A stretch of 64,000 nt of DNA from Planctomycetota bacterium (GTDB taxonomy: Bacteria; Planctomycetota; Phycisphaerae; Phycisphaerales; SM1A02): positions 72,582-136,581 of the forward strand of contig QWPV01000001.1 of the NCBI GenBank assembly GCA_003671055.1. The letters are read 5' to 3'. The position numbers were made by a program, and so were the translations under genes. Each line of letters opens with the position of its first letter. Within the stretch, counting starts at the first letter, position 1. The notes below the pieces were generated by a model. The model saw only the letters and a program-made list of their open reading frames with translations, was not told the origin of the DNA and did not search any database. Shown here piece by piece: positions 18,677 to 29,915 of this stretch.

Positions 18677-19624
18677 ATGCAAGTGACTCGAATCTCACTC
18701 CTCGTTCTGAGTGTGCTTGCGATGCGCGCATCGGTGGCGCTCGCACTCGACCCACCAGCGGTTATGCAACCGAGCCTCCTTGCAGGTCCGCCGACGCAAT
18801 CACAAGCGCCTGCAACACCGTCCTTGCTCGAGCCATCCTTTGATCGTGCGTTCGAGCACGTCACGGGAGAAGTTGGAATCGTCGCAATCCTGAGACTCGA
18901 GTTGACGCCCGCGCAGCGCGAAATCGTGATTCAAATCGCCGAGGAGCGGATGGTTGCATTCAATCAAGTCGCAAAAAAGTCGTACGGGAAACTGATCGCG
19001 CTGCAGGGATTTGAAGAACAACTGCAGGGATCCGCGCGTGAGAAAGTTTCTGCCAGCATTGCGCTGCTGCGCGCCTATCTCGCAACTCGCACGATCATTC
19101 ACCGCGAAAGCGCGCTCGATGCACTTGCCGCGACCAATGCATTCGACGACGCACAACTCAGCACAGCGCGAGCGATGGTGACGGCGTACGAGAAAGCACT
19201 CCGTACGGAGCTCACCCTCGCAACGCCAAACCTCGCGGGCGACGAACTCGATCGACGGGTCTACCTCGCGACGCTCGGCGACATCCTCAAAGACAATCTC
19301 GAGCTCGACGCAAAAATGGGAAGCGAGGAGTTCGACGCCTTCAGCAGCGCGATCGAACTCACGCCCGTGCAAGAAGAGCGCGTCAAGATGCGATTCACGC
19401 CCGTTGCCGTACAAGAGTTCCTCGGCAATCGTGTCCCTTTGCTCACGCGCGTTCGAGCCCTTCTTGAAGTGAGCCGCGAACTCACCGCTTCGCAGCGCAA
19501 GCTCGCGTGGAAGTACATTCACGAGAAGGAACGCGCAGTCAACGATTCACGCAAGGATTCACGCAAGGATTCGGCTGAGGATGCGATGAGCGTCCCTGCG
19601 CCCGCGCCGATGATGTCAGAGTGA
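18677..19624 (+). CDS. Secreted protein of unknown function
   Basis: A 315-residue protein with an apparent signal peptide (LLVLSVLAMRASVALA, cleavage near residue 24). A Pro/Gln-rich stretch follows, then an all-helical, charged body. LELTPAQREIVIQIAEERM and LEVSRELTASQRKLAWKYI look like LTxxQ-type helices of periplasmic Spy/CpxP-like proteins, but similarity is weak. Near the C-terminus the heptanucleotide-rich repeat GATTCACGCAAG is duplicated, giving DSRKDSRKDS. It starts 20 nt after the transsulfuration gene and may share its transcript. Its stop overlaps the stop of the convergent operon by 9 nt. The function is unknown. Confidence 0.6.
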   Translation: MQVTRISLLVLSVLAMRASVALALDPPAVMQPSLLAGPPTQSQAPATPSLLEPSFDRAFEHVTGEVGIVAILRLELTPAQREIVIQIAEERMVAFNQVAKKSYGKLIALQGFEEQLQGSAREKVSASIALLRAYLATRTIIHRESALDALAATNAFDDAQLSTARAMVTAYEKALRTELTLATPNLAGDELDRRVYLATLGDILKDNLELDAKMGSEEFDAFSSAIELTPVQEERVKMRFTPVAVQEFLGNRVPLLTRVRALLEVSRELTASQRKLAWKYIHEKERAVNDSRKDSRKDSAEDAMSVPAPAPMMSE

Positions 19625-20377
19625 GACGTTCCATCGACCCTCACGCCACCACGCGATCTTTGGATCCACACGGAAGAGCGCGCCGAGATCCGAAACGTCG
19701 ATTTCCACAAGCGGCGCGCCGCTCGTGATCGCGATATCAATCGACAGCGGTCGTGGTTGCGGCATGAGGAGTGCAGCTTCAAGCAACAACATTCGGCGAA
19801 GCGCAGCGTTGTCGAGGACAGGACGAGTTCCTCCGCGAAGCGTCCGACACTCTCGTTCGAATCCCTCGCGTCCGCCAGGAATCATCGCGTCGTATTCATC
19901 GAGCAATGACTCCGCACTCGCAGCGCGAATCGTCGCGAGCGCGACTTGCCCACGCCCGATGCGGTAGTACGAGAGCGCACGCGAAAGCGCGAGTGCCTTG
20001 GATGGTTCGATGCCGCCAGCGCCACTCACATACTGCGTACCACCAAGGAGGGCAGCTGCGGCTTGCATGCGACGCTTCTCAAGCGGCGTCGACGCGAGCG
20101 ATGCGCGACCAAGTGCGGCGCTGCGCGCGAGTCGATCGCGATCAAGGGCGCCAGCGAGACCGAACAATTCACGCGCAAGTTGACGCTCTGCTTCGTTGGT
20201 TGCTGCGTCGGCAACTTCCTCGCCGAGCAGAAAGTAATCGAGTGGCCGCGTTGGATCGAGAGCCTCGAGCCTCGCATCCCAGCGCGTGGGCGCTGACGCC
20301 GAGACGCCGAGCGCACTCGGAAACATGCAGAAAAGCACTGCAAGACAAGCGATTCCTGTGTGTCGCGCCGTCATCAT
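19616..20377 (-). CDS. Small secreted protein, last gene of the ExbB/ExbD/VWA operon
   Basis: A 253-residue protein with a signal peptide (GIACLAVLFCMFPSALG, to about residue 30). The rest is mostly helical (RLEALDPTRPLDYFLLGEEVADAATNEAE and similar), suggesting a short TPR-like or alpha-solenoid module, and ends in a beta-rich tail. I do not recognise the family. Its ATG overlaps the stop of the 1006-residue membrane protein by 4 nt (ATGA), so it belongs to the same translationally coupled series. It overlaps the convergent secreted-protein gene by 9 nt and closes the operon. Confidence 0.65.
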   Translation of the reverse strand: MMTARHTGIACLAVLFCMFPSALGVSASAPTRWDARLEALDPTRPLDYFLLGEEVADAATNEAERQLARELFGLAGALDRDRLARSAALGRASLASTPLEKRRMQAAAALLGGTQYVSGAGGIEPSKALALSRALSYYRIGRGQVALATIRAASAESLLDEYDAMIPGGREGFERECRTLRGGTRPVLDNAALRRMLLLEAALLMPQPRPLSIDIAITSGAPLVEIDVSDLGALFRVDPKIAWWREGRWNVSL

Positions 20378-23300
20378 GGTTCATCCTCACGATGTGTGAC
20401 TTCCGCTTCGATGTTCACTGTCACCACTCGAGCAAATCCGATCATCGTCGCTGCGAGTTGGGCGGACGCACTCTGCGCGTTGCTGCGTGCGAGTGCTGTA
20501 TTGGCAAGAATCTCGCGAAGTGCGGGAGTTGCACTCGGACGCCGCGCCGCTTCGATCGCTGCAGCTTGTTCAACGAGCGACGCTGCGTCCGCAACTGCGC
20601 GTTGCAGCGACCCTTCTGCAAGTCCGCGTCGTGCAATGCGAAGTCTCTCAAGCTCAGCCGGAGCAGCGGGAAATGGTTCCGTCAGAAACCGGTCATCCGC
20701 AGCGACTCGCACCGCGCCGCCGAGCGCTGCGATCGAACCATCAAGCGTGACTGGGATATCCATGAGCAGAATGCTCGGCGCATACAGGACTGTGATCGCG
20801 TTCGCGCTGCCCATCACGCGCATCGACATGCGATCCACCGCCGCATCCGCGCTTGACTCAAGCGAAAGTATTCGCTCCACCAACGCCGCGCGCGCAACCG
20901 GAATCCAATCGCGACCAGTGAACTCTCGATTCAAGAGTGCTGCGAGAAACGCCGCCGCCTCTTCGCGCGGCTTCTGCTCAGCGAGTGCATCAAGCACCGC
21001 GAGCAAGACGGTCTTCCCACTCGCGAACTTGTCCGCAATCGCGCCCTGCGCAGCGCGTCTTGTGTCACTTGCGTTGCCAGCGAACGCCTCACGCGCAAGG
21101 ACTTCCGCATCGCGTGGACCGAGGTCGCCTGTGGCGGGCATCGCACGCAACGACGCGATGCGCTTCTGTCGTTCATCCGCATTCAACCCAGGCCGTGTGA
21201 ACTCGTCAGACCATGCACCGTCGGATGAACCTGAAGGCCGCAAACCACTCTCGCCGGCAAACGGTGCTTCAAGCGCACGGCGATCAAGTTTGAGCGCTTC
21301 GCCACTCGCACTCAACGCACGCCCTGCATCTGCAGCCTTTCCCGCGTCGAACAGTCGAACAGCGTGCACGACTTCAAGCGCGCTCTCTGCAATCGCAAGC
21401 GACTCCACATCGTCATGCGTTGTTTCAAGCTGCGCGGAAAGCGTCGCGATCGACGTTCGAATCAGATCGAGCGTGCTGCTCGCGAGGGCGAGGTTTTCCC
21501 CCTGCTCACCCGATTCTGCTTTCGGCCACGCGTCGAGAATCCGTCGCAAAGCAGCATCGCGGCGCAGCGCATTCGCATCAACAGGCAGCACCATCTCTGG
21601 CGAGAACCACGCGATGCGATGATTCCGATCAAGCATGCTCGTGAGTACCCACAGCCGAGTGGCTGCAATCGCGGGATTCGCAAACCACGAGCCGAACGCG
21701 GTGCGCGCCTGATCGCCAGACACGCCGCGGTTCGACCAGTCGATATCCGTGATCAATCGACCAAGGGCATCGCTCGCGTCATTCTGCAAGTCAATCGGCG
21801 CAACGTTGAGGAGGATCGCCTCAATCGCAATGAGACGCGCGCCTTCACGCAATTTCGCATTCTCACTCGCGGCGTCCACTGCTTCAAGCCAGCGTGACCA
21901 ATCATCGAGCGTCACTGTGGCAAGTCCTGTGGTCGTCGCATCCGCAAGCGCGTGCGCACTGTTCGAGAGACTCGCAATCGCGGCGTAGTTGAATCGCTGC
22001 GTCGTGACGGACGCTGGAATCGACACTCCATCTCGACGCAACGCTTCACGCGCTGCACTCGCGACATCTGCTTCGATCTTCGCATCTCGCACGATCTCCG
22101 CGAGAAGGCCTGCAGCCAAGGCGTTTCGCCACACACGATGCCATGGTGCGACAGGCTCGAGCAGCGCGTCTGACTCAGGAAGTCCATGCACCGCCAGTAC
22201 CAGCGCGCGTGCAGACGCTTCGCCCTTCACATACTGCGCGACTTGCAGCGTTGCCTGGATGAACTCCGTTCGAAAAGCACCTGAGACCGCCCACGAGATT
22301 CCTGCCTCACGCATCACCGTCGCAAGATCAGCGGCATGTTTACCACTCAAGCGACCGCCGTTGGTTGAGATCGCGCGACTTAGTAGATCGAGTTCGGTCA
22401 GGTACTCCGGCCATTTCGCGGAGAGTTGAAGCGCAACTGCAGGCGTCGCGCTCGACGCAAATCCAGGCGCGCGCGAGTACTTCGCCGCGTTCGCGAGTGC
22501 TTCGATGTTCGTATCTGGCGGCGCGAACTTTTGCGCGAGCGCTGCAGCGGCTCGCTCACGCTTCGTCGAATCGTCGTCGATTGCTGCGATCGTCGGCAGA
22601 GGCATGCTGCCGCCCGTTGCACTGTTCCCATCAACACCAGACCCACGCACAATCATCCACACGAGCGCAAGTGTGCAGAGCACCGAACCAATGCCGAAGA
22701 AAATCGCGAGTCGTAAGATCGACCACGGTGACCGACCTTGCATGTCATCTGTGATCGAGCCGCCGATGCGATCCATCACCGCTTCGACCGCGCCTGGCTT
22801 CTGCGGTCGACTAGCGTGTGCGCGCTCGGCGGAGACACCGATCGCAGCCATATCTTTTTGCAGCGCCGCCGCACCGCCATCGCGCATGAACTTTGCGAGA
22901 CCAGCAACTACGCGCTGCAGCCCCTCGTTACTCACGCCATGTTCAGCAGCGATCGCAGCGAGTTGCGCGGCCGTCTTCGGATTCCAACCGCCACCGCTCA
23001 CGAGGATCGTGAGGACCACGCGATCAAACTCCGTGAGGTTCTCTTCTGTCACTCCCGCGCGCGGCCGCGTCGGCGTGAATCCCGCAGCATTTTGGCCTGT
23101 TCCCGCGCCGCGTTCGATGCGTAACTTCGCCAACGGATGCACGGGCGCGAGGCTCGGTTCTCGCATCAACGAAAGCTCAAGTTCAACCTCGCGTGCGTAG
23201 GCTTCGAGTTGATGAATCGCGCGCGCTGCATCAGGCGAGTCCGCATACGGATGCGCGCGCACCTTCGCGATGAGCCGTGCAAGCGCGGCTTCGACCGCAG

Positions 23301-23394
23301 CATCCGTTGTTGTTCCTGCTCCAACGCCAAGCACACCGCGCGCGCTTCGATCACTGCCGATCTCGATGAATCGATCAAGTGGTGTGAGCTTCAT
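20374..23394 (-). CDS. Large single-pass membrane protein of the ExbB/ExbD/VWA operon
   Basis: A 1006-residue protein. Residues 1-225 are cytoplasmic-looking and include a helical, winged-helix-like part (FDRVVLTILVSGGGWNPKTAAQLAAIAAEHG). One transmembrane helix lies at about 226-249 (SILRLAIFFGIGSVLCTLAL). About 750 residues of helical, solenoid-like sequence follow, presumably periplasmic. No enzyme motif is visible. The ATG overlaps the preceding TPR-like gene by 4 nt and its own stop overlaps the next gene by 4 nt. A topology spanning the inner membrane suits a scaffold that connects cytoplasmic and periplasmic parts of the ExbB/ExbD complex; this is inference from position and topology only. 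Confidence 0.7.
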   Translation of the reverse strand: MKLTPLDRFIEIGSDRSARGVLGVGAGTTTDAAVEAALARLIAKVRAHPYADSPDAARAIHQLEAYAREVELELSLMREPSLAPVHPLAKLRIERGAGTGQNAAGFTPTRPRAGVTEENLTEFDRVVLTILVSGGGWNPKTAAQLAAIAAEHGVSNEGLQRVVAGLAKFMRDGGAAALQKDMAAIGVSAERAHASRPQKPGAVEAVMDRIGGSITDDMQGRSPWSILRLAIFFGIGSVLCTLALVWMIVRGSGVDGNSATGGSMPLPTIAAIDDDSTKRERAAAALAQKFAPPDTNIEALANAAKYSRAPGFASSATPAVALQLSAKWPEYLTELDLLSRAISTNGGRLSGKHAADLATVMREAGISWAVSGAFRTEFIQATLQVAQYVKGEASARALVLAVHGLPESDALLEPVAPWHRVWRNALAAGLLAEIVRDAKIEADVASAAREALRRDGVSIPASVTTQRFNYAAIASLSNSAHALADATTTGLATVTLDDWSRWLEAVDAASENAKLREGARLIAIEAILLNVAPIDLQNDASDALGRLITDIDWSNRGVSGDQARTAFGSWFANPAIAATRLWVLTSMLDRNHRIAWFSPEMVLPVDANALRRDAALRRILDAWPKAESGEQGENLALASSTLDLIRTSIATLSAQLETTHDDVESLAIAESALEVVHAVRLFDAGKAADAGRALSASGEALKLDRRALEAPFAGESGLRPSGSSDGAWSDEFTRPGLNADERQKRIASLRAMPATGDLGPRDAEVLAREAFAGNASDTRRAAQGAIADKFASGKTVLLAVLDALAEQKPREEAAAFLAALLNREFTGRDWIPVARAALVERILSLESSADAAVDRMSMRVMGSANAITVLYAPSILLMDIPVTLDGSIAALGGAVRVAADDRFLTEPFPAAPAELERLRIARRGLAEGSLQRAVADAASLVEQAAAIEAARRPSATPALREILANTALARSNAQSASAQLAATMIGFARVVTVNIEAEVTHREDEP

Positions 23395-26060
23395 GGCGTT
23401 GCTCCTCGCGTCGTTCCTTGCTTCGAACGCACTTCTATCTCAAGCGCCTCGAACCGCTCTTTCCAAAGACCTGGCCCGAGATCCGCGTGCAACTTTCGAT
23501 GCTGCTCAAGCACCGCAGCGCTGCGATCTGCATCAATGAGCAACAAGACTCGCGCGAGGTCGTACTTCGCGGCAAACCAAGGCTCTGTTCGAGTTGCCAA
23601 CCCACTCACGAGCGACTTGAGATGGCCAACCGCGACTTCATGCGCGCCAGACTTCTCCGCGAACAACGCCGCTGATTGCAGAATGCCCGCCTCGCGATTC
23701 CCTGCATCAATCAACACCTGCGCAATCTGCAGTCCACGCTTGGCATCCTCGCTCGACGCACTCGACAACACCATCTCCTTGCGAGCATCAAGCAACACGC
23801 GCACGAACGCCACATTCGCGGGCGATTGCGCCGCCTTCTCAAGTCCGCCCTCTCGGAGCAAGAGCGCTTCTGCTGCGCGTACTGAAGTCGCGACAAACGC
23901 GCTTCTTCGCGGATCGTCCTTCGCTGTTGCGCGCCGCGCGATCTCTGCGCCACGCAGTGCGAGCCGAAGCCCTGCATCCGCCCACAGATCGGTCGCGCTC
24001 GGCAATTCAAATTGCGCGAGTCCGCTCTCGACTAACTCCCACTGGTTCTGCATGATCGCCAACTGCAATCGTCGGTACGCCAACTCTTCGCGCGCCTCTG
24101 CGAGTTCGAATTCGCCGCGCGCGACAGACGCATCGATGGCTGTCAACAGTGACGCAGCGAGCGCGGTGTCCAAGACTTCGTTCGCGAGCGCGACTTCAAG
24201 CGCCTGTCGCGCAATGCCCACACTATTTCCGGGCAACCCTTCAGCAGTTGGATCAATCGGCAGCGAGACAAGCACGCCGATGTATCGACGCCCAAGCGCA
24301 GTCCGCTCAGTCGCAACTTTCGCAGCGCGGAAATTTCGATAGAGCGCGCCGAGCGCCGCACGACGCGACGAGTCGAAGGATGGATCGGTGCTCGGCACCG
24401 ACAACAATTTCTCGACATCCGCAGTGGATGGCGTGGAGTCCGTCTGCACTCTGCGCACCATCAAGTCGACCACGCGTAACGAAGCCGGGAAACGCCGAAG
24501 AAATCCATCGCTCAGCAGCGCGATCTCCGCTTCAAGCGCGGTGCGCTCCGCACCACGCATCGTTCGCGCATACTCATCAAGACATGCGATCGAAGCCCAC
24601 GCTGCGTCTTCTCCGCGCTCTCCAGTGAGGTTTACTGCGACTTCTTCAAATGCCTTCGCTGCCTCGCGATATGCACGCGCGCCACGAAGACTCCACGCTC
24701 GCATGAGTTTGCAACCATCTCGTGCTTCGGGATAGCCGTCGACATCCGCAGCAGCAAGCGCTTCTTCGAGCGCATTGAGCGCTTCGCGATTTGCGCGGAC
24801 AACATTTTCGAGCGCACTCGTATCGACGCTCGATCCTTGCTCTTCCGCGAGGAGTCGCGCAGACTCATACGCGGTGTCCGTAGCGCGCGCCGTGTCGTAC
24901 TGGGAGAGCGACGCAACGTAGCGCGCGACGAAGCCATCGCCTTCGAGTCCGCGACCACCGAACTGCTCGACGATGTCGCGCACTTGCGCGAGTTCTCGCT
25001 TCGTCGCAAGTTGCGCAAGGGCTTCACGCGCAAGTGCGAGTGCGGCACCATCATTGGTGGTATCGCGAAGTCCGCCCGCAGCTGCGACGCGATACCACGC
25101 CGTTGCAGTGCTGTCTTGAGACGCAAGTGCTTTGAGCACCGTACGCGCACTTGCCCAATCTTTCGCACGCACTGCAGCAGCGAGTCGCCATCCATCGAGC
25201 CGAGCCCTCGTCGCTTCAAAGGTTGTGGGCTCTTCGAGAAGTTTCAACCAACGCGATGCTTCACCGTAACCTTGCGTCTCCGCTTTCGCGAGTCCAAGTC
25301 CGAGCAACGCCGATGCGAATGCTTCTTCGCCACGCAAATCCATCGAGACTTCCGCGGGTTCGAGTCGACCGTTGCGTGCGCCCGCGATCTCCGCAAAGAT
25401 TGCAACGGAAGCTTCAGCCTCTGCGCGCGACTCACTCAAGAGGCACTTGTACAAGTGCGCCCAGCCGAGCAGAAACCTCGCGTCAGAAGCGATCTGCTCG
25501 ACGCGTTGAATATCCTGACGCGCGAGATCTTGCGTGAGGCCAACCATCGAATCGATCCGACGGTCGAGGTCACTCGCTCGTTGCATCGACTCCTTCTGCA
25601 ATCGTTCAAGCGTGGGAATCGCCAACGCGAGTTCGGCAAGCGCAAAGCTCGCCGACTCCGTGGGCAATCGCACTGCGGCACGAAGATCCTCCGCGATTTC
25701 CGCGGCGCCACGGTAATGCGCACGAGCGATCGCGAGATCAAGTCGATGCGTTGCGTCGCCAAGACTCTCTTCGAGTGCGCCATTCGCGCGTGCGACAAGC
25801 GCCGCGCGATCCTTCCCTCGCACCGAGAGATCGAGCAATCGCACATAGGTCGATGCCAATCGTTCGCGGACTCGCTTGAGTTCGTCGCCGGTGGATTGCT
25901 TCGTGAGCAATTCCAGTCGCGTGGCAAGAAGTTCATCAAGCGCGTGTGCTTCGAGCCAGTCCGCGAGTTCGTCACCACGCGCCGAGCCCACGCACATCAC
26001 GCAGACCATGCTCGCCACTGCGAGGAATCGACGCGAGGAATGGAACAACTTCTGTTTCAT
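23391..26060 (-). CDS. Secreted alpha-helical repeat (TPR-like) protein
   Basis: An 889-residue protein with a signal peptide (FLAVASMVCVMCVGSARG, to about residue 29). The rest is a long series of amphipathic helix pairs rich in Ala, Leu, Arg and Glu, with TPR-like spacing (for example AEDLRAAVRLPTESASFAL and SALLGLGLAKAETQGYGEA). It is probably a periplasmic protein-binding solenoid. Its ATG overlaps the stop of the second exbD by one base (TGATG), and its stop overlaps the next start by 4 nt. In Tol/Ton-like systems TPR proteins often bridge to the outer membrane, but here that is only a suggestion. Confidence 0.7.
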   Translation of the reverse strand: MKQKLFHSSRRFLAVASMVCVMCVGSARGDELADWLEAHALDELLATRLELLTKQSTGDELKRVRERLASTYVRLLDLSVRGKDRAALVARANGALEESLGDATHRLDLAIARAHYRGAAEIAEDLRAAVRLPTESASFALAELALAIPTLERLQKESMQRASDLDRRIDSMVGLTQDLARQDIQRVEQIASDARFLLGWAHLYKCLLSESRAEAEASVAIFAEIAGARNGRLEPAEVSMDLRGEEAFASALLGLGLAKAETQGYGEASRWLKLLEEPTTFEATRARLDGWRLAAAVRAKDWASARTVLKALASQDSTATAWYRVAAAGGLRDTTNDGAALALAREALAQLATKRELAQVRDIVEQFGGRGLEGDGFVARYVASLSQYDTARATDTAYESARLLAEEQGSSVDTSALENVVRANREALNALEEALAAADVDGYPEARDGCKLMRAWSLRGARAYREAAKAFEEVAVNLTGERGEDAAWASIACLDEYARTMRGAERTALEAEIALLSDGFLRRFPASLRVVDLMVRRVQTDSTPSTADVEKLLSVPSTDPSFDSSRRAALGALYRNFRAAKVATERTALGRRYIGVLVSLPIDPTAEGLPGNSVGIARQALEVALANEVLDTALAASLLTAIDASVARGEFELAEAREELAYRRLQLAIMQNQWELVESGLAQFELPSATDLWADAGLRLALRGAEIARRATAKDDPRRSAFVATSVRAAEALLLREGGLEKAAQSPANVAFVRVLLDARKEMVLSSASSEDAKRGLQIAQVLIDAGNREAGILQSAALFAEKSGAHEVAVGHLKSLVSGLATRTEPWFAAKYDLARVLLLIDADRSAAVLEQHRKLHADLGPGLWKERFEALEIEVRSKQGTTRGATP

Positions 26061-26473
26061 CAGCGGAACGGCACGTAGGTCACATTTGTGTAACCCGCAT
26101 CATGCGCGGCTTGCACCGCGCCAGCAGCGAATCCGAAATCGACACCATCTCGCACGCGGACGAACACACTGTCTTCCGGATTCAGCGCACGGAGAGCGAC
26201 CGTGAGTGACTCTTTGTCGCCGTAGGTTCCGCCGCCGACACGATAGAGCCGCGTGCCATTTTCCTGCACCACGTCAATGTTCTGCAATTCAAGGTCCGTG
26301 CGCTTCTCGCTGCCCTGCTGTGTTGCGAGTTGAGGATCAAGTTGCGCCTCTTGCACCACCGCAGATTGCGTGAACAAGAAGTACCCGAGCAGCAGAAATG
26401 TCGCATCAATCATCGCCGCGAGATTAATCTCGGGTTTACGGTCGCGCTCGGATCCTCGTCGCTGGAATCTCAT
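26060..26473 (-). CDS. ExbD/TolR-family protein, second copy
   Basis: A 137-residue ExbD-like protein: a short cytoplasmic N-terminus, one transmembrane helix with the conserved proton-path Asp (EINLAAMIDATFLLLGYFLF), and a periplasmic domain ending FGFAAGAVQAAHDAGYTNV. The Asp that carries protons in ExbD and TolR is kept. The helix has extra aromatic and glycine residues compared with its upstream partner, and the linker is Gln-rich. The ATG overlaps the stop of the first exbD by 4 nt. Two non-identical ExbD subunits alongside one ExbB recall the Myxococcus Agl and Gld-like motors, although the precise role here is unknown. Confidence 0.88.
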   Translation of the reverse strand: MRFQRRGSERDRKPEINLAAMIDATFLLLGYFLFTQSAVVQEAQLDPQLATQQGSEKRTDLELQNIDVVQENGTRLYRVGGGTYGDKESLTVALRALNPEDSVFVRVRDGVDFGFAAGAVQAAHDAGYTNVTYVPFR

Positions 26474-26898
26474 TTCGCAGATCCCTCCGTCGCGACCCGA
26501 ACCGCCTGCACGCCTGCTCGCGAGAGACGCTCGAGCACCTCGTTGATGACCTCAGTGCGCGCAGCACGATCCGCGCGAATGAGCGGTCGTAACTTCGCAA
26601 CTCCGCCTTCAGTGATTGCCCCTGCCTCCGTCACGAGTTCGCCAATGCGGTCGAGCGACACAGGTTGTTCATTCACGAGAATGCTCCCGTCTGCGAGCAC
26701 ATTCAACACAACCCCAGCTTGCGCCTTTGCATAATCCTTCTGCCCAGGTTCCTTGGGAAGCGCTACGTCGGTACGCGCTAGTTGCGCCGCTTGACCAGTC
26801 ACAAGAAAGAAAATGAGCAATTGAAAAACGATATCGATCAGCGGTGTCATGTCCACCACTGCGCCGCGGAAGGAGTTATTGCGAGGAGCAAATCGCAT
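26470..26898 (-). CDS. exbD: ExbD/TolR-family protein, first copy
   Basis: A 142-residue ExbD-family protein. The N-terminal helix DMTPLIDIVFQLLIFFLVTG carries the essential Asp in LID. A periplasmic domain of about 100 residues follows, with the LVNEQPVSLDRIGELV strand-helix-strand typical of ExbD. ATG 26896-26898 is preferred, with GGAA 7-10 nt upstream; an in-frame TTG at 26910 would add four residues. exbB ends 31 bp upstream. The stop overlaps the second exbD by 4 nt. It should form, with ExbB, the proton-driven stator of the operon. Confidence 0.9.
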   Translation of the reverse strand: MRFAPRNNSFRGAVVDMTPLIDIVFQLLIFFLVTGQAAQLARTDVALPKEPGQKDYAKAQAGVVLNVLADGSILVNEQPVSLDRIGELVTEAGAITEGGVAKLRPLIRADRAARTEVINEVLERLSRAGVQAVRVATEGSAK

Positions 26899-26929
26899 CG
26901 TGCGTTCCAATCACTACTGCTTCGAATCG

Positions 26930-27640
26930 TTAGACGCGCGCCACCTTCGTCTTGCCTGTGCTCTCAATGATCGCGACGACTTCTTCCATCTCGGAGGCCG
27001 CATCTCCAGCAAGCCGATCGACGCGGTTGCGGAAGAAGCTGTAGAGCGAGACGCACGGAATCGCGACCACGAGACCTTGGAAAGTTGTGATGAGTGCAAT
27101 CGCGATGTTGGCGGCGAGTGCCTCGTAGTAGGTCGAATCGTGTGCTGCGCTTGACGCGACAGTTTCGAATGCGCCGATCATTCCCTGCACCGTGCCGAGC
27201 AGTCCCAACAGCGGGCCGACCGAACCAATCACGCCGATCACATCCATCGTGCGATACAGGCGCGCCGTTTGTTCGATGCCGCTCTCTTCAAGCGCGCTCT
27301 TCATCTCGAATGCGCCAAAGGGCGATGCGATGAATCGCTTTAATCCAGGCGCGAGGGTTCGCAGGAAGTAGCAGTCGTTCGCGGGCAAGAGCGAGTACTC
27401 GAGCGCCTGCTCAAGTTGACCGCGCCGAAGCAGTTCCTTCACCGCGTTGATGCGATCACGCGGCATCTGCACGGATGCGCGGATCTGCACAAAGTGCACG
27501 ACCACAAACGCAAACGCGACGATCGAGAGGAGCACGATGATGTAGCCGATCGCTCCACCGCCCGTGATGAACTTGAGTGCGGAGGTTCCGCCGCTTGGGG
27601 CTGCGGTATTCGCTGCTGCTTGCAATAGAAAATGCGTCAT
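26930..27640 (-). CDS. exbB: ExbB/TolQ/MotA-family proton channel protein
   Basis: A 236-residue inner-membrane protein with three hydrophobic helices: about 30-52 (GYIIVLLSIVAFAFVVVHFV), about 135-160 and 170-195. The family signatures VGPLLGLLGTVQGMIGAF and ALITTFQGLVVAIP keep the conserved helix-2 and helix-3 threonines of ExbB and TolQ. With ExbD it forms a pentameric proton channel that drives periplasmic work. The ATG overlaps the stop of the upstream secreted-protein gene by 4 nt. There is no tonB, tolA or pal in the window; the VWA protein two genes upstream is the likely output component. Confidence 0.92.
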   Translation of the reverse strand: MTHFLLQAAANTAAPSGGTSALKFITGGGAIGYIIVLLSIVAFAFVVVHFVQIRASVQMPRDRINAVKELLRRGQLEQALEYSLLPANDCYFLRTLAPGLKRFIASPFGAFEMKSALEESGIEQTARLYRTMDVIGVIGSVGPLLGLLGTVQGMIGAFETVASSAAHDSTYYEALAANIAIALITTFQGLVVAIPCVSLYSFFRNRVDRLAGDAASEMEEVVAIIESTGKTKVARV

Positions 27641-28791
27641 GGTTGTTGCTTCCTGTCAATCTCTGGTGCGGCCGCCGGCACCGCTGCGCGCTTCAAAAGT
27701 GGGTCGCCGTCAAGTGTGGCGATGATGCGTTCAATCGATTTCGCGCTTTTCGCGTCGCCGTACGCGCGACACGCTCCCGCAGCTTCAAGCAAAGCGAGTC
27801 GCCCGAGCGCGGAACTTCCTTCGGTTGCGGCAACGCTCAAGAGTTCAAGCGTTCCTTCTTCCTGTGCAGCACGATCGGGTTGTGATACGAGCGCGCGACC
27901 GATTGCCATGGATCGCCACGCGAGAAGATATGGAGGCGCATCCCCGCCGCCCACTTGCTTCGCGATGGCGAGAAATCCTTCGGACAACTTGCGTCGATCA
28001 CGCGCATCACTCGCAAGAAGAATCTCTTCGAGCGTGATGAGAAGTTTCTCGCTCGTGGATGGGCTTGCACTCGGTGCAGCATGCTGCGGCGCGCGGCGCA
28101 GGATTCTCGCGAAGCGCGGCGCCCAAATGACGCTCGTGCCACCGTCTTTCACCGCGCTCTCAAGAGCTGCAGCAACCCGCGTGGCAAGCTCGGGCGATGT
28201 GAACGGACTGATCTCGCTCGAGAACATCGTGCTCGCATCAAGCACAGGCGGAAGCGTGTTGAATGGCGTTGCATTCGCGCCGCCGCCAGCACTGCGCGCT
28301 TCGACAAGCGTCATCCATGGCTCGATTGCGGCAACATTGTCTCCGCGCGCGAGTGCGCACCGAAGCAGTCCCTCGGCAATGAGTTGACCAAGGTCTCCCT
28401 TCCGAGTGCGAAGCGCGCTCCACGTCTCACGGAACAACGGTTCCGCGAGTTCAACATCATCACGCAACAGTCGAGTGCGTGCGCGCCACACACTCTCGCC
28501 GAATTTCAACTGCGCATCGATGTTTCCTGGCGCGGTCGTTCCGCTCACCGTTCGCACTTCATCCCAACGCGCGAACTGATCGACTCCATCCGCGCCCTTG
28601 ATGCGCAATCCAGACTCTTCAACAATCGCCGCTGCGCCATCAAGCGCGGGCAACCCGCCTCGACGTTCGACATGCACCTCAGCAAGCGCGACTTGTGCAA
28701 TGCTGCCGAGTGTCGCAGCGACGCTGAGCACGAGTGTTCGTAGTGAAGATGAACGGGGAATTCGCATGAGCAGAGAGCGTGACGAAGACAT
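27637..28791 (-). CDS. Secreted protein between the VWA and exbB genes
   Basis: About 384 residues, with a signal peptide (TLVLSVAATLGSIAQVALA). A small beta-rich N-terminal part follows (VHVERRGGLPALDGAAAIVEE), then helical repeats through to the C-terminus, ending in an Ala/Pro tail. The family is not recognised. The start at 28791 lies three bases after the VWA stop. An alternative ATG at 28765-28767 (MRIPRSS) gives a more typical signal peptide and cannot be ruled out. Its stop overlaps exbB by 4 nt. It is presumably a periplasmic partner of the ExbB/ExbD complex, by context only. Confidence 0.7.
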   Translation of the reverse strand: MSSSRSLLMRIPRSSSLRTLVLSVAATLGSIAQVALAEVHVERRGGLPALDGAAAIVEESGLRIKGADGVDQFARWDEVRTVSGTTAPGNIDAQLKFGESVWRARTRLLRDDVELAEPLFRETWSALRTRKGDLGQLIAEGLLRCALARGDNVAAIEPWMTLVEARSAGGGANATPFNTLPPVLDASTMFSSEISPFTSPELATRVAAALESAVKDGGTSVIWAPRFARILRRAPQHAAPSASPSTSEKLLITLEEILLASDARDRRKLSEGFLAIAKQVGGGDAPPYLLAWRSMAIGRALVSQPDRAAQEEGTLELLSVAATEGSSALGRLALLEAAGACRAYGDAKSAKSIERIIATLDGDPLLKRAAVPAAAPEIDRKQQP

Positions 28792-28794
28792 CAA

Positions 28795-29820
28795 TCAGGG
28801 CGACGCTGGAATGGTGATACGAACTCCGCCAGTGACGGGCACGAATCGAAAGACGCCTTCGTTTTCACGCGCGATCTGTTCGAGCGCCAACCGACCAACA
28901 TCCGAGCCAAAGCAAATCGTGTTGATGATCGACGCGCGCCGCTGCTTATGATTGAGGCGAGTGATTTCATCCGGCGCGCCAGGTGGAATCTCACCATCCG
29001 TCAGGAAAAACACGACATCCGCGGATGCCGAAAGCTCAGCAAGTCGCTCGAACGAGGTCATCGGATACGTGCCACCGCCCGCGGCTTGCTCTTCAATCCA
29101 ACGCTTGAGTCGAAGCACATTGCCTCGCGTCGCGCGCGTCCATGTCTCTTGCCAATCAGGCACCCGCTTGTCATCGGAGAAAAGAATGACGTAGAAACTT
29201 GCGAAGTCCGGGAGCGCCGCGACGGAACGCTTCAACTCGTTCAGCGCAACGACGAAGCGATCGTCGGCCTGCATCGAACCTGAAACATCGACGATAAATG
29301 CGAATCGCGCGCCGCGACCGCCAACGCCAAAGAAACTTGTTCCACCGCCGCCGCGACCACTTCCAATGCCGATGCCTTGACCAGGTCCGCCAGTACCAAC
29401 GATGCCGCCGGGACCTGGCGCCTCAAGCATCCCAAAACTATTCTGTGTCGGGTCACTGCTCGCGAGATCCGCACTCAGCGCAGGAATCTCATCCGGGTCC
29501 GGCATAATTTCGCCCGCTGCGAGCGGCGAAGGATCCGGAAGTTCAACGTCCTCCGTCGGCTGCACGGGCTCTTGCGCTTCGGCGAGATTGAATTCAACGG
29601 GCTCGGAATATCGCGCTTCAACCGCAGGTTCGCGATACCACCACAGCGAGAGCATCATCATGATGTGCACAACAATCGATACCGCGAATGCGAAGAGAAG
29701 CAGGTGCACCCAGTACTCACGCGCATATCGCTTCCGCTCTCCTTGAAGGGTCACGACGCGAACAGCCTTGCCTCTCCTCAGGGGCGTCGGTGGCGGAGTT
29801 GGGCTTGCGGGAAGTTGCAT
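28795..29820 (-). CDS. TonB-like transmembrane protein with a VWA domain
   Basis: A 341-residue protein from ATG 29818-29820. It has a basic cytoplasmic N-terminus (1-36) and one transmembrane helix (about 37-62). An acidic Pro-rich spacer (64-120) and a Gly-rich stretch (136-170) follow, then a VWA domain (170-341). The helix contains S48-x3-H52 (SIVVH) with Leu59, matching the Ser/His/Leu spacing of TonB's transmembrane motif. The VWA MIDAS is intact: DVSGS at 178-182, Thr251 and Asp275 in LTDGEI. It heads the ExbB/ExbD operon. I infer a force transducer energised by ExbB/ExbD whose periplasmic end is a metal-dependent adhesion domain. An earlier in-frame start at 29883 is less likely. Confidence 0.85.
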   Translation of the reverse strand: MQLPASPTPPPTPLRRGKAVRVVTLQGERKRYAREYWVHLLLFAFAVSIVVHIMMMLSLWWYREPAVEARYSEPVEFNLAEAQEPVQPTEDVELPDPSPLAAGEIMPDPDEIPALSADLASSDPTQNSFGMLEAPGPGGIVGTGGPGQGIGIGSGRGGGGTSFFGVGGRGARFAFIVDVSGSMQADDRFVVALNELKRSVAALPDFASFYVILFSDDKRVPDWQETWTRATRGNVLRLKRWIEEQAAGGGTYPMTSFERLAELSASADVVFFLTDGEIPPGAPDEITRLNHKQRRASIINTICFGSDVGRLALEQIARENEGVFRFVPVTGGVRITIPASP

Positions 29821-29915
29821 GAAATCCCTGCGCGGCTGGGCGGGTCGTGAGCGGTTAGGGGCCCCGAGTCGGCGAGCCCACATGTTCTTACGAGATCCCT
29901 CTCAAAGTGCACGCC

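Follow-up and report, generated by a model that had tools for sequence, protein, structure and literature searches.

The operon and its proteins

The operon described here lies on the minus strand of a 64,000-nucleotide stretch of planctomycete DNA (contig QWPV01000001.1; hereafter the window), in which an ORF reading confirmed all eight genes, closely spaced between positions 29883 and 19616. The first gene, A (28795-29883, minus strand like those that follow), encodes a TonB/TolA-like transducer with an N-terminal transmembrane (TM) segment bearing an S-x3-H-x6-L motif, a linker, and a C-terminal VWA domain with a complete MIDAS. It is followed by B (27637-28794), a secreted protein; by C (26930-27640), an ExbB/TolQ-type motor ring protein; and by D (26470-26910) and E (26060-26473), encoding ExbD1 and a divergent second ExbD, ExbD2. 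Thereafter come F (23391-26060), encoding a secreted TPR solenoid protein of 889 aa; G (20374-23394), encoding a single-pass membrane protein of 1006 aa; and H (19616-20377), encoding a secreted helical protein of 253 aa. A and B abut, 4-nt overlaps join B to C, D to E, F to G, and G to H, and a 1-nt overlap joins E to F; the eight tightly coupled minus-strand genes (29820-19616) put forward in an earlier, sequence-only reading are thus borne out. For A, the in-frame ATG at 29820 matches the start of the homologue alignment better than does 29883 and is the more likely start. B begins at a TTG, with an alternative ATG at 28791, and ExbD1 at a TTG at 26910; the 31-bp gap previously noted before the first exbD holds if the ATG at 26898 is used. 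Pfam matches were obtained for A (VWA_3, above the cut-off), C (MotA_ExbB), and both D and E (ExbD), while B, F, G, and H returned zero matches in Pfam, NCBIfam, and PADLOC.

The flanking genes, named from sequence, lie on the opposite strand, with pyrH and frr upstream and cystathionine/cysteine synthase-type genes downstream. Convergent with H is a plus-strand gene for a 315-aa secreted protein (18677-19624), which shares a 9-nt overlap with the terminal part of H; a few relatives (L040, L047, L049, and L064) likewise conserve it next to the operon.

The motor proteins retain most of the residues expected of their families. In ExbB, Thr150 and Thr186 are invariant and correspond by motif to the essential Thr148 and Thr181 (PMC12905483). 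The TM3 Glu (E176 equivalent), present in the ExbB of the ordinary Ton system of the same genome, is Ile in the window protein and is replaced by Leu, Ile, Val, Gln, Thr, or Lys in most members, for which reason the proton path may differ. Its loss was rejected as a diagnostic of the eight-gene type, as L059 keeps the Glu and core-type loci (see below) carry Thr, Gln, Lys, or Glu. As the sequence-only reading had it, both ExbD proteins keep the proton-carrying TM Asp, within MTPLID in ExbD1 and AAMID in ExbD2, in the window as well as in the homologues examined. Elsewhere in the window's genome, a lone ExbB-like gene (G000:C78:5908-6201, L045) has no adjoining ExbD and has a counterpart in related genomes.

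In the 341-aa form of A, the TM segment ends near residue 62 and the VWA domain starts near residue 172, the two being separated by an acidic/Gly-rich linker of ~100 aa. The TM segment carries the docking motif S48-x3-H52-x6-L59, of which S48 and H52 are invariant across 20 homologues, with a Leu at the correct spacing for L59 in most of these; S-x3-H is likewise kept in nearly all other VWA loci. This corresponds to the SHLS motif through which TonB and TolA contact ExbB and TolQ (PMC12905483), the last Ser of which is Arg in the window protein. In the homologue alignment, the MIDAS residues D178, S180, S182, T251, and D275 are all invariant.

An AlphaFold2 model of B (pLDDT 85) comprises a small β domain (residues 40-84) followed by TPR-like helices (92-361), for which Foldseek returned weak TPR-protein matches only (best E 0.026). 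G is divided into a cytoplasmic J-domain-like region (~18-78), a helical region with an invariant GGWN motif (122-184), a TM segment (223-251), and a periplasmic helical-repeat region (319-1004). The model of G (pLDDT 74, pTM 0.41) shows helices at 18-78 that would suit a J-like domain, along with an all-helical periplasmic part, and its Foldseek matches were generic ARM/HEAT-type solenoids with no specific relative among them (best E 0.0015). Neither the B nor the G matches point to a function. As the DnaJ profile match is weak (E 0.6 in the window, 0.019 in L078), we use "J-like" as a suggestion; the corresponding region of the window protein has no HPD motif. In two distant versions of the operon, the last gene (L078:6434-7228 and L076:6414-7193) has a secreted product containing four CxxCxGxG-like motifs of DnaJ type, and the G-like gene just before it begins with a J-like domain.

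Conservation, fusions, and relocation of the motor

A profile search found F in 32 of 41 relatives, at full length in most sampled members of three families of the order. When the 20-kb regions around F-bearing loci were annotated with iterated profiles (named GTDB contigs being added later), nearly every region proved to carry all eight genes on a single strand, with their order unchanged. After the removal of duplicate VWA sequences, the strict order VWA-B-ExbB-ExbD1-ExbD2-F-G-H was present at 51 distinct loci, mostly from the window's order, with 7 further distinct loci displaying the same order with G and H fused as one ORF. Taken with the distribution of F, these strict and fused loci place the operon far beyond chance. 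The strict order extends to L127, which belongs to the same phylum but to a family that lies outside the class of the window, and in which all eight genes are present; in L128, only G was undetected among the eight. The association of the partner genes with exbB/exbD, as proposed in the sequence-only reading, thus recurs well outside the window.

In the rest of the phylum, the loci run VWA, a ~1-kb secreted protein (B'), ExbB, two ExbDs in succession, and a ~800-930-aa secreted protein (F'), with weak F-profile matches in other families having been judged by their neighbourhood. Profile-profile comparison found B homologous to B' (97.9%, E 4e-13) and F to F' (99.7%, E 9e-27) over their full lengths, part of the latter similarity being the common TPR pattern. 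On the strength of these homologies, the six genes A-F constitute the ancient core, with G and H as an extension. The VWA transducer itself was found in 40 of the 41 relatives, including 35 of 35 genomes of good quality, which shows the VWA machine to be near-universal in this planctomycete order. Across the phylum, a VWA-profile count of 311 of 392 genomes takes in VWA proteins of other kinds and does not serve here as a measure of machine prevalence. In other planctomycete families, L132, L133, L135, and L136 hold VWA proteins with an S-x3-H TM segment and no adjoining ExbB; at L132, MoxR/DUF58-type genes lie ~5 kb downstream of the VWA gene.

Gene fusions provide hints of interaction between the partner proteins. 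At seven distinct loci G carries H fused at its C-terminus, and at six B is fused to F. The latter fusion typifies one subclade (L093, L203, L206, L210, L201, L205, and L218) in which the operon reads A-(B.F)-G-H and is without ExbB/ExbD, with S-x3-H being retained in the VWA TM segment. Loss of the motor from these loci was considered and rejected: a genome search revealed a stand-alone exbB-exbD-exbD set elsewhere in 4/4 distinct split-operon genomes (five were queried, of which G132 and the L194 genome gave identical matches). The relocated ExbB branches inside the ExbBs of the eight-gene type (support 100/98), and the neighbours of the relocated set in G132 are unrelated genes. In each genome tested, the motor is thus retained along with the arm even though the two are unlinked.

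Two other motor loci are found in the window's genome. At G000:C6 (L044:4503-9764) lies a second core-type locus, encoding VWA, ExbB, ExbD, ExbD, and an 833-aa TPR-like secreted protein, without B; its VWA protein keeps S-x3-H in the TM segment, and its later MIDAS motif is changed from TDG to STN. At G000:C32 (L043:6615-13714) lies an ordinary Ton system, comprising an ExbB with a long periplasmic N-terminus, ExbD, TonB, and a TPR protein, together with a TonB-dependent receptor of 1003 aa.

Relation to known motor-driven systems

The operon shares with TonB-ExbB-ExbD its motor and its S-x3-H TM transducer, yet differs in having VWA in place of TonB_C, no receptor, two ExbDs, and solenoid partners. 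Scans against Pfam and NCBIfam found no TonB_C domain in A, the only one in the genome being that of the C32 Ton locus. Within the limits set by draft genomes and divergent families, TonB_C was undetected in 24 of the 41 relatives (present in 17); among the 32 that carry gene F, 22 gave no TonB_C match and 20 no match to the TonB-dependent receptor plug domain. No receptor gene lies near the operon.

With TolQRA-TolB-Pal, the operon has in common the motor family and the transducer architecture, and it differs in the absence of the TolA C-terminal domain, TolB, and Pal. CpoB, a periplasmic TPR protein, is part of Tol-Pal as well. Within the same limits of draft genomes and divergent families, TolB_N was undetected in all 41 relatives, a count that a highly divergent TolB could escape, and neither tolB nor pal was found in the window operon or at homologous loci. 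OmpA-type domains occur in all 41 relatives, and the window's genome encodes two Pal-like OmpA lipoproteins elsewhere, neither beside a motor. The earlier observation that no TonB, TolA, Pal, or TolB gene adjoins the operon was correct, and with no TonB_C in A, no receptor, and no tolB or pal at these loci, the machine is neither a Ton nor a Tol-Pal system.

Agl/Glt and GldLM likewise have a proton motor that drives an extensive trans-envelope assembly, TPR-type parts included. No matching gene set was seen in the operon, where B, F, G, and H match no Pfam or NCBIfam family, and its transducer topology is TonB-like and not GldM-like. The TPH-vWA family pairs TolQ with vWA in the absence of TolR and has its proton Asp in the VWA TM segment, whereas the operon encodes two Asp-bearing ExbDs and a VWA TM segment with S-x3-H. 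With respect to Zorya and other defence systems, 0/8 proteins matched PADLOC models.

The closest counterpart is the class of vWA motor-coupled force transducers predicted by Williams-Jones et al. in 2025 (Mol Biol Evol msaf138, PMC12204202). These proteins have an SHLS TM segment, a disordered linker of ~100 residues, and a C-terminal VWA domain; their neighbours are a TPR gene, a TolQ-like gene, and a heterologous pair of TolR-like genes; and they occur in PVC bacteria, including Planctomycetes, as well as in other phyla, with no function assigned there. Further predicted features of the class are docking of the TM segment at the edge of the pentamer and a motor-box strand. The operon has the docking TM segment (except for the last Ser), the ~100-residue linker leading to VWA, and the TolQ-like, two TolR-like, and TPR genes, and this kind of machine was therefore already known by prediction. 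The sequence-only reading had proposed a complete, uncharacterised proton-driven machine with a VWA output; its motor-and-arm inference is well supported by S-x3-H, the MIDAS, the ExbB Thr and ExbD Asp residues, and phylum-wide synteny, whereas the novelty of the class gives way to the 2025 prediction (PMC12204202). The completeness proposed there is tentative, as G and H extend the A-F core, the operon holds no outer-membrane partner, and one subclade keeps its motor genes elsewhere. There are differences from the 2025 class: the VWA gene is first here and downstream of the motor genes there, and B, G, and H are added here in fixed order; the passages of the paper considered here mention neither fusions nor split operons nor a second paralogous locus. 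Our literature search found no description of the eight-gene version, of B, G, or H, of the fusions or split operon, or of near-universality in this order. We thus regard the operon as a larger variant of the 2025-predicted class, adding B, a member of the ancient core, along with G and H.

Proposed machine and possible roles

Irrespective of its role, the operon probably specifies a trans-envelope machine of the TolQRA/ExbBD-TonB type that is driven by the proton-motive force, with VWA in place of the C-terminal domain of TonB or TolA. An ExbB pentamer together with an ExbD1/ExbD2 pair would form a 5:2 motor, on which the VWA protein would dock via its S-x3-H TM segment, with the acidic/Gly-rich linker spanning part of the periplasm. 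As the VWA arm is pulled or cycled, its MIDAS metal site might grip and release a ligand; the operon itself includes no outer-membrane protein or lipoprotein on which the arm might act. B, F, and H would serve as periplasmic solenoid partners, while G, in the inner membrane, would connect a J-like domain on the cytoplasmic side with an extended helical scaffold in the periplasm.

As to what such a machine might do, our tentative guess is housekeeping upkeep of the connection between the outer membrane and peptidoglycan, i.e., occupation of the Tol-Pal niche in planctomycetes, as suggested by the pattern of gene presence and absence; against it stand the two Pal-like OmpA lipoproteins encoded elsewhere in the genome and the chance that a highly divergent TolB escaped detection. 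The main rival, itself unlikely, is a surface motility or adhesion motor comparable to the GldLM of Bacteroidota or the Agl/Glt gliding machinery of Myxococcus, in which an adhesin would be moved or presented across the envelope by the VWA arm. Binding of adhesive ligands is known for VWA domains, and the solenoid periplasmic partners look like a trans-envelope scaffold; a gliding-type role for VWA transducers was also suggested by Williams-Jones et al. (PMC12204202). Against this, neither the operon nor its conserved surroundings include an adhesin, β-barrel, or outer-membrane lipoprotein gene, and the machine is found across essentially all genomes of the order, more in keeping with housekeeping than with an optional motility trait.

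A regulatory VWA, with the MIDAS-ligand state gating the motor or signalling to the cytoplasm via the J-like domain of G and Hsp70 with no force being transmitted, would draw on that domain (through its weak DnaJ profile matches and modelled helices) and on the CxxCxGxG motifs of L076 and L078. We consider it distinctly improbable, given that the window J-like region has no HPD and that the minimal core is without G yet keeps the VWA docking motif and linker. Two-ExbD arrangements are known in some Ton systems. Nevertheless, Ton-like uptake, with the VWA domain standing in for that of TonB to open outer-membrane transporters, is very improbable, as the TonB-like motor and docking motif are outweighed by the frequent non-detection of TonB_C and plug domains in F-bearing relatives, the lack of a nearby receptor, and the separate Ton locus beside its receptor in the same genome.

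Returning to envelope upkeep, a fuller version of the proposal, more doubtful than the role guess alone, is that the Planctomycetota, having no recognisable Tol-Pal system, rely for general proton-driven envelope maintenance on the VWA machine, whose ancient parts (A-F, at least six) were duplicated early into two lineages, with the eight-part version also tying the motor across the membrane to a cytoplasmic J-domain-like module. If so, force or state in the envelope might be linked through this module to the work of cytoplasmic chaperones. The operon adds three previously unrecognised parts (B, G, and H) and a fixed gene order to a class predicted only in 2025. The near-universality of the machine in an order in which TolB went undetected, as TonB frequently did, makes it testable what, other than Tol-Pal, may hold and remodel the envelope of planctomycetes. 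A natural experiment is offered by the split-operon subclade, whose motor is encoded elsewhere and in which B is fused to F, and which parts the motor from the load-bearing components.
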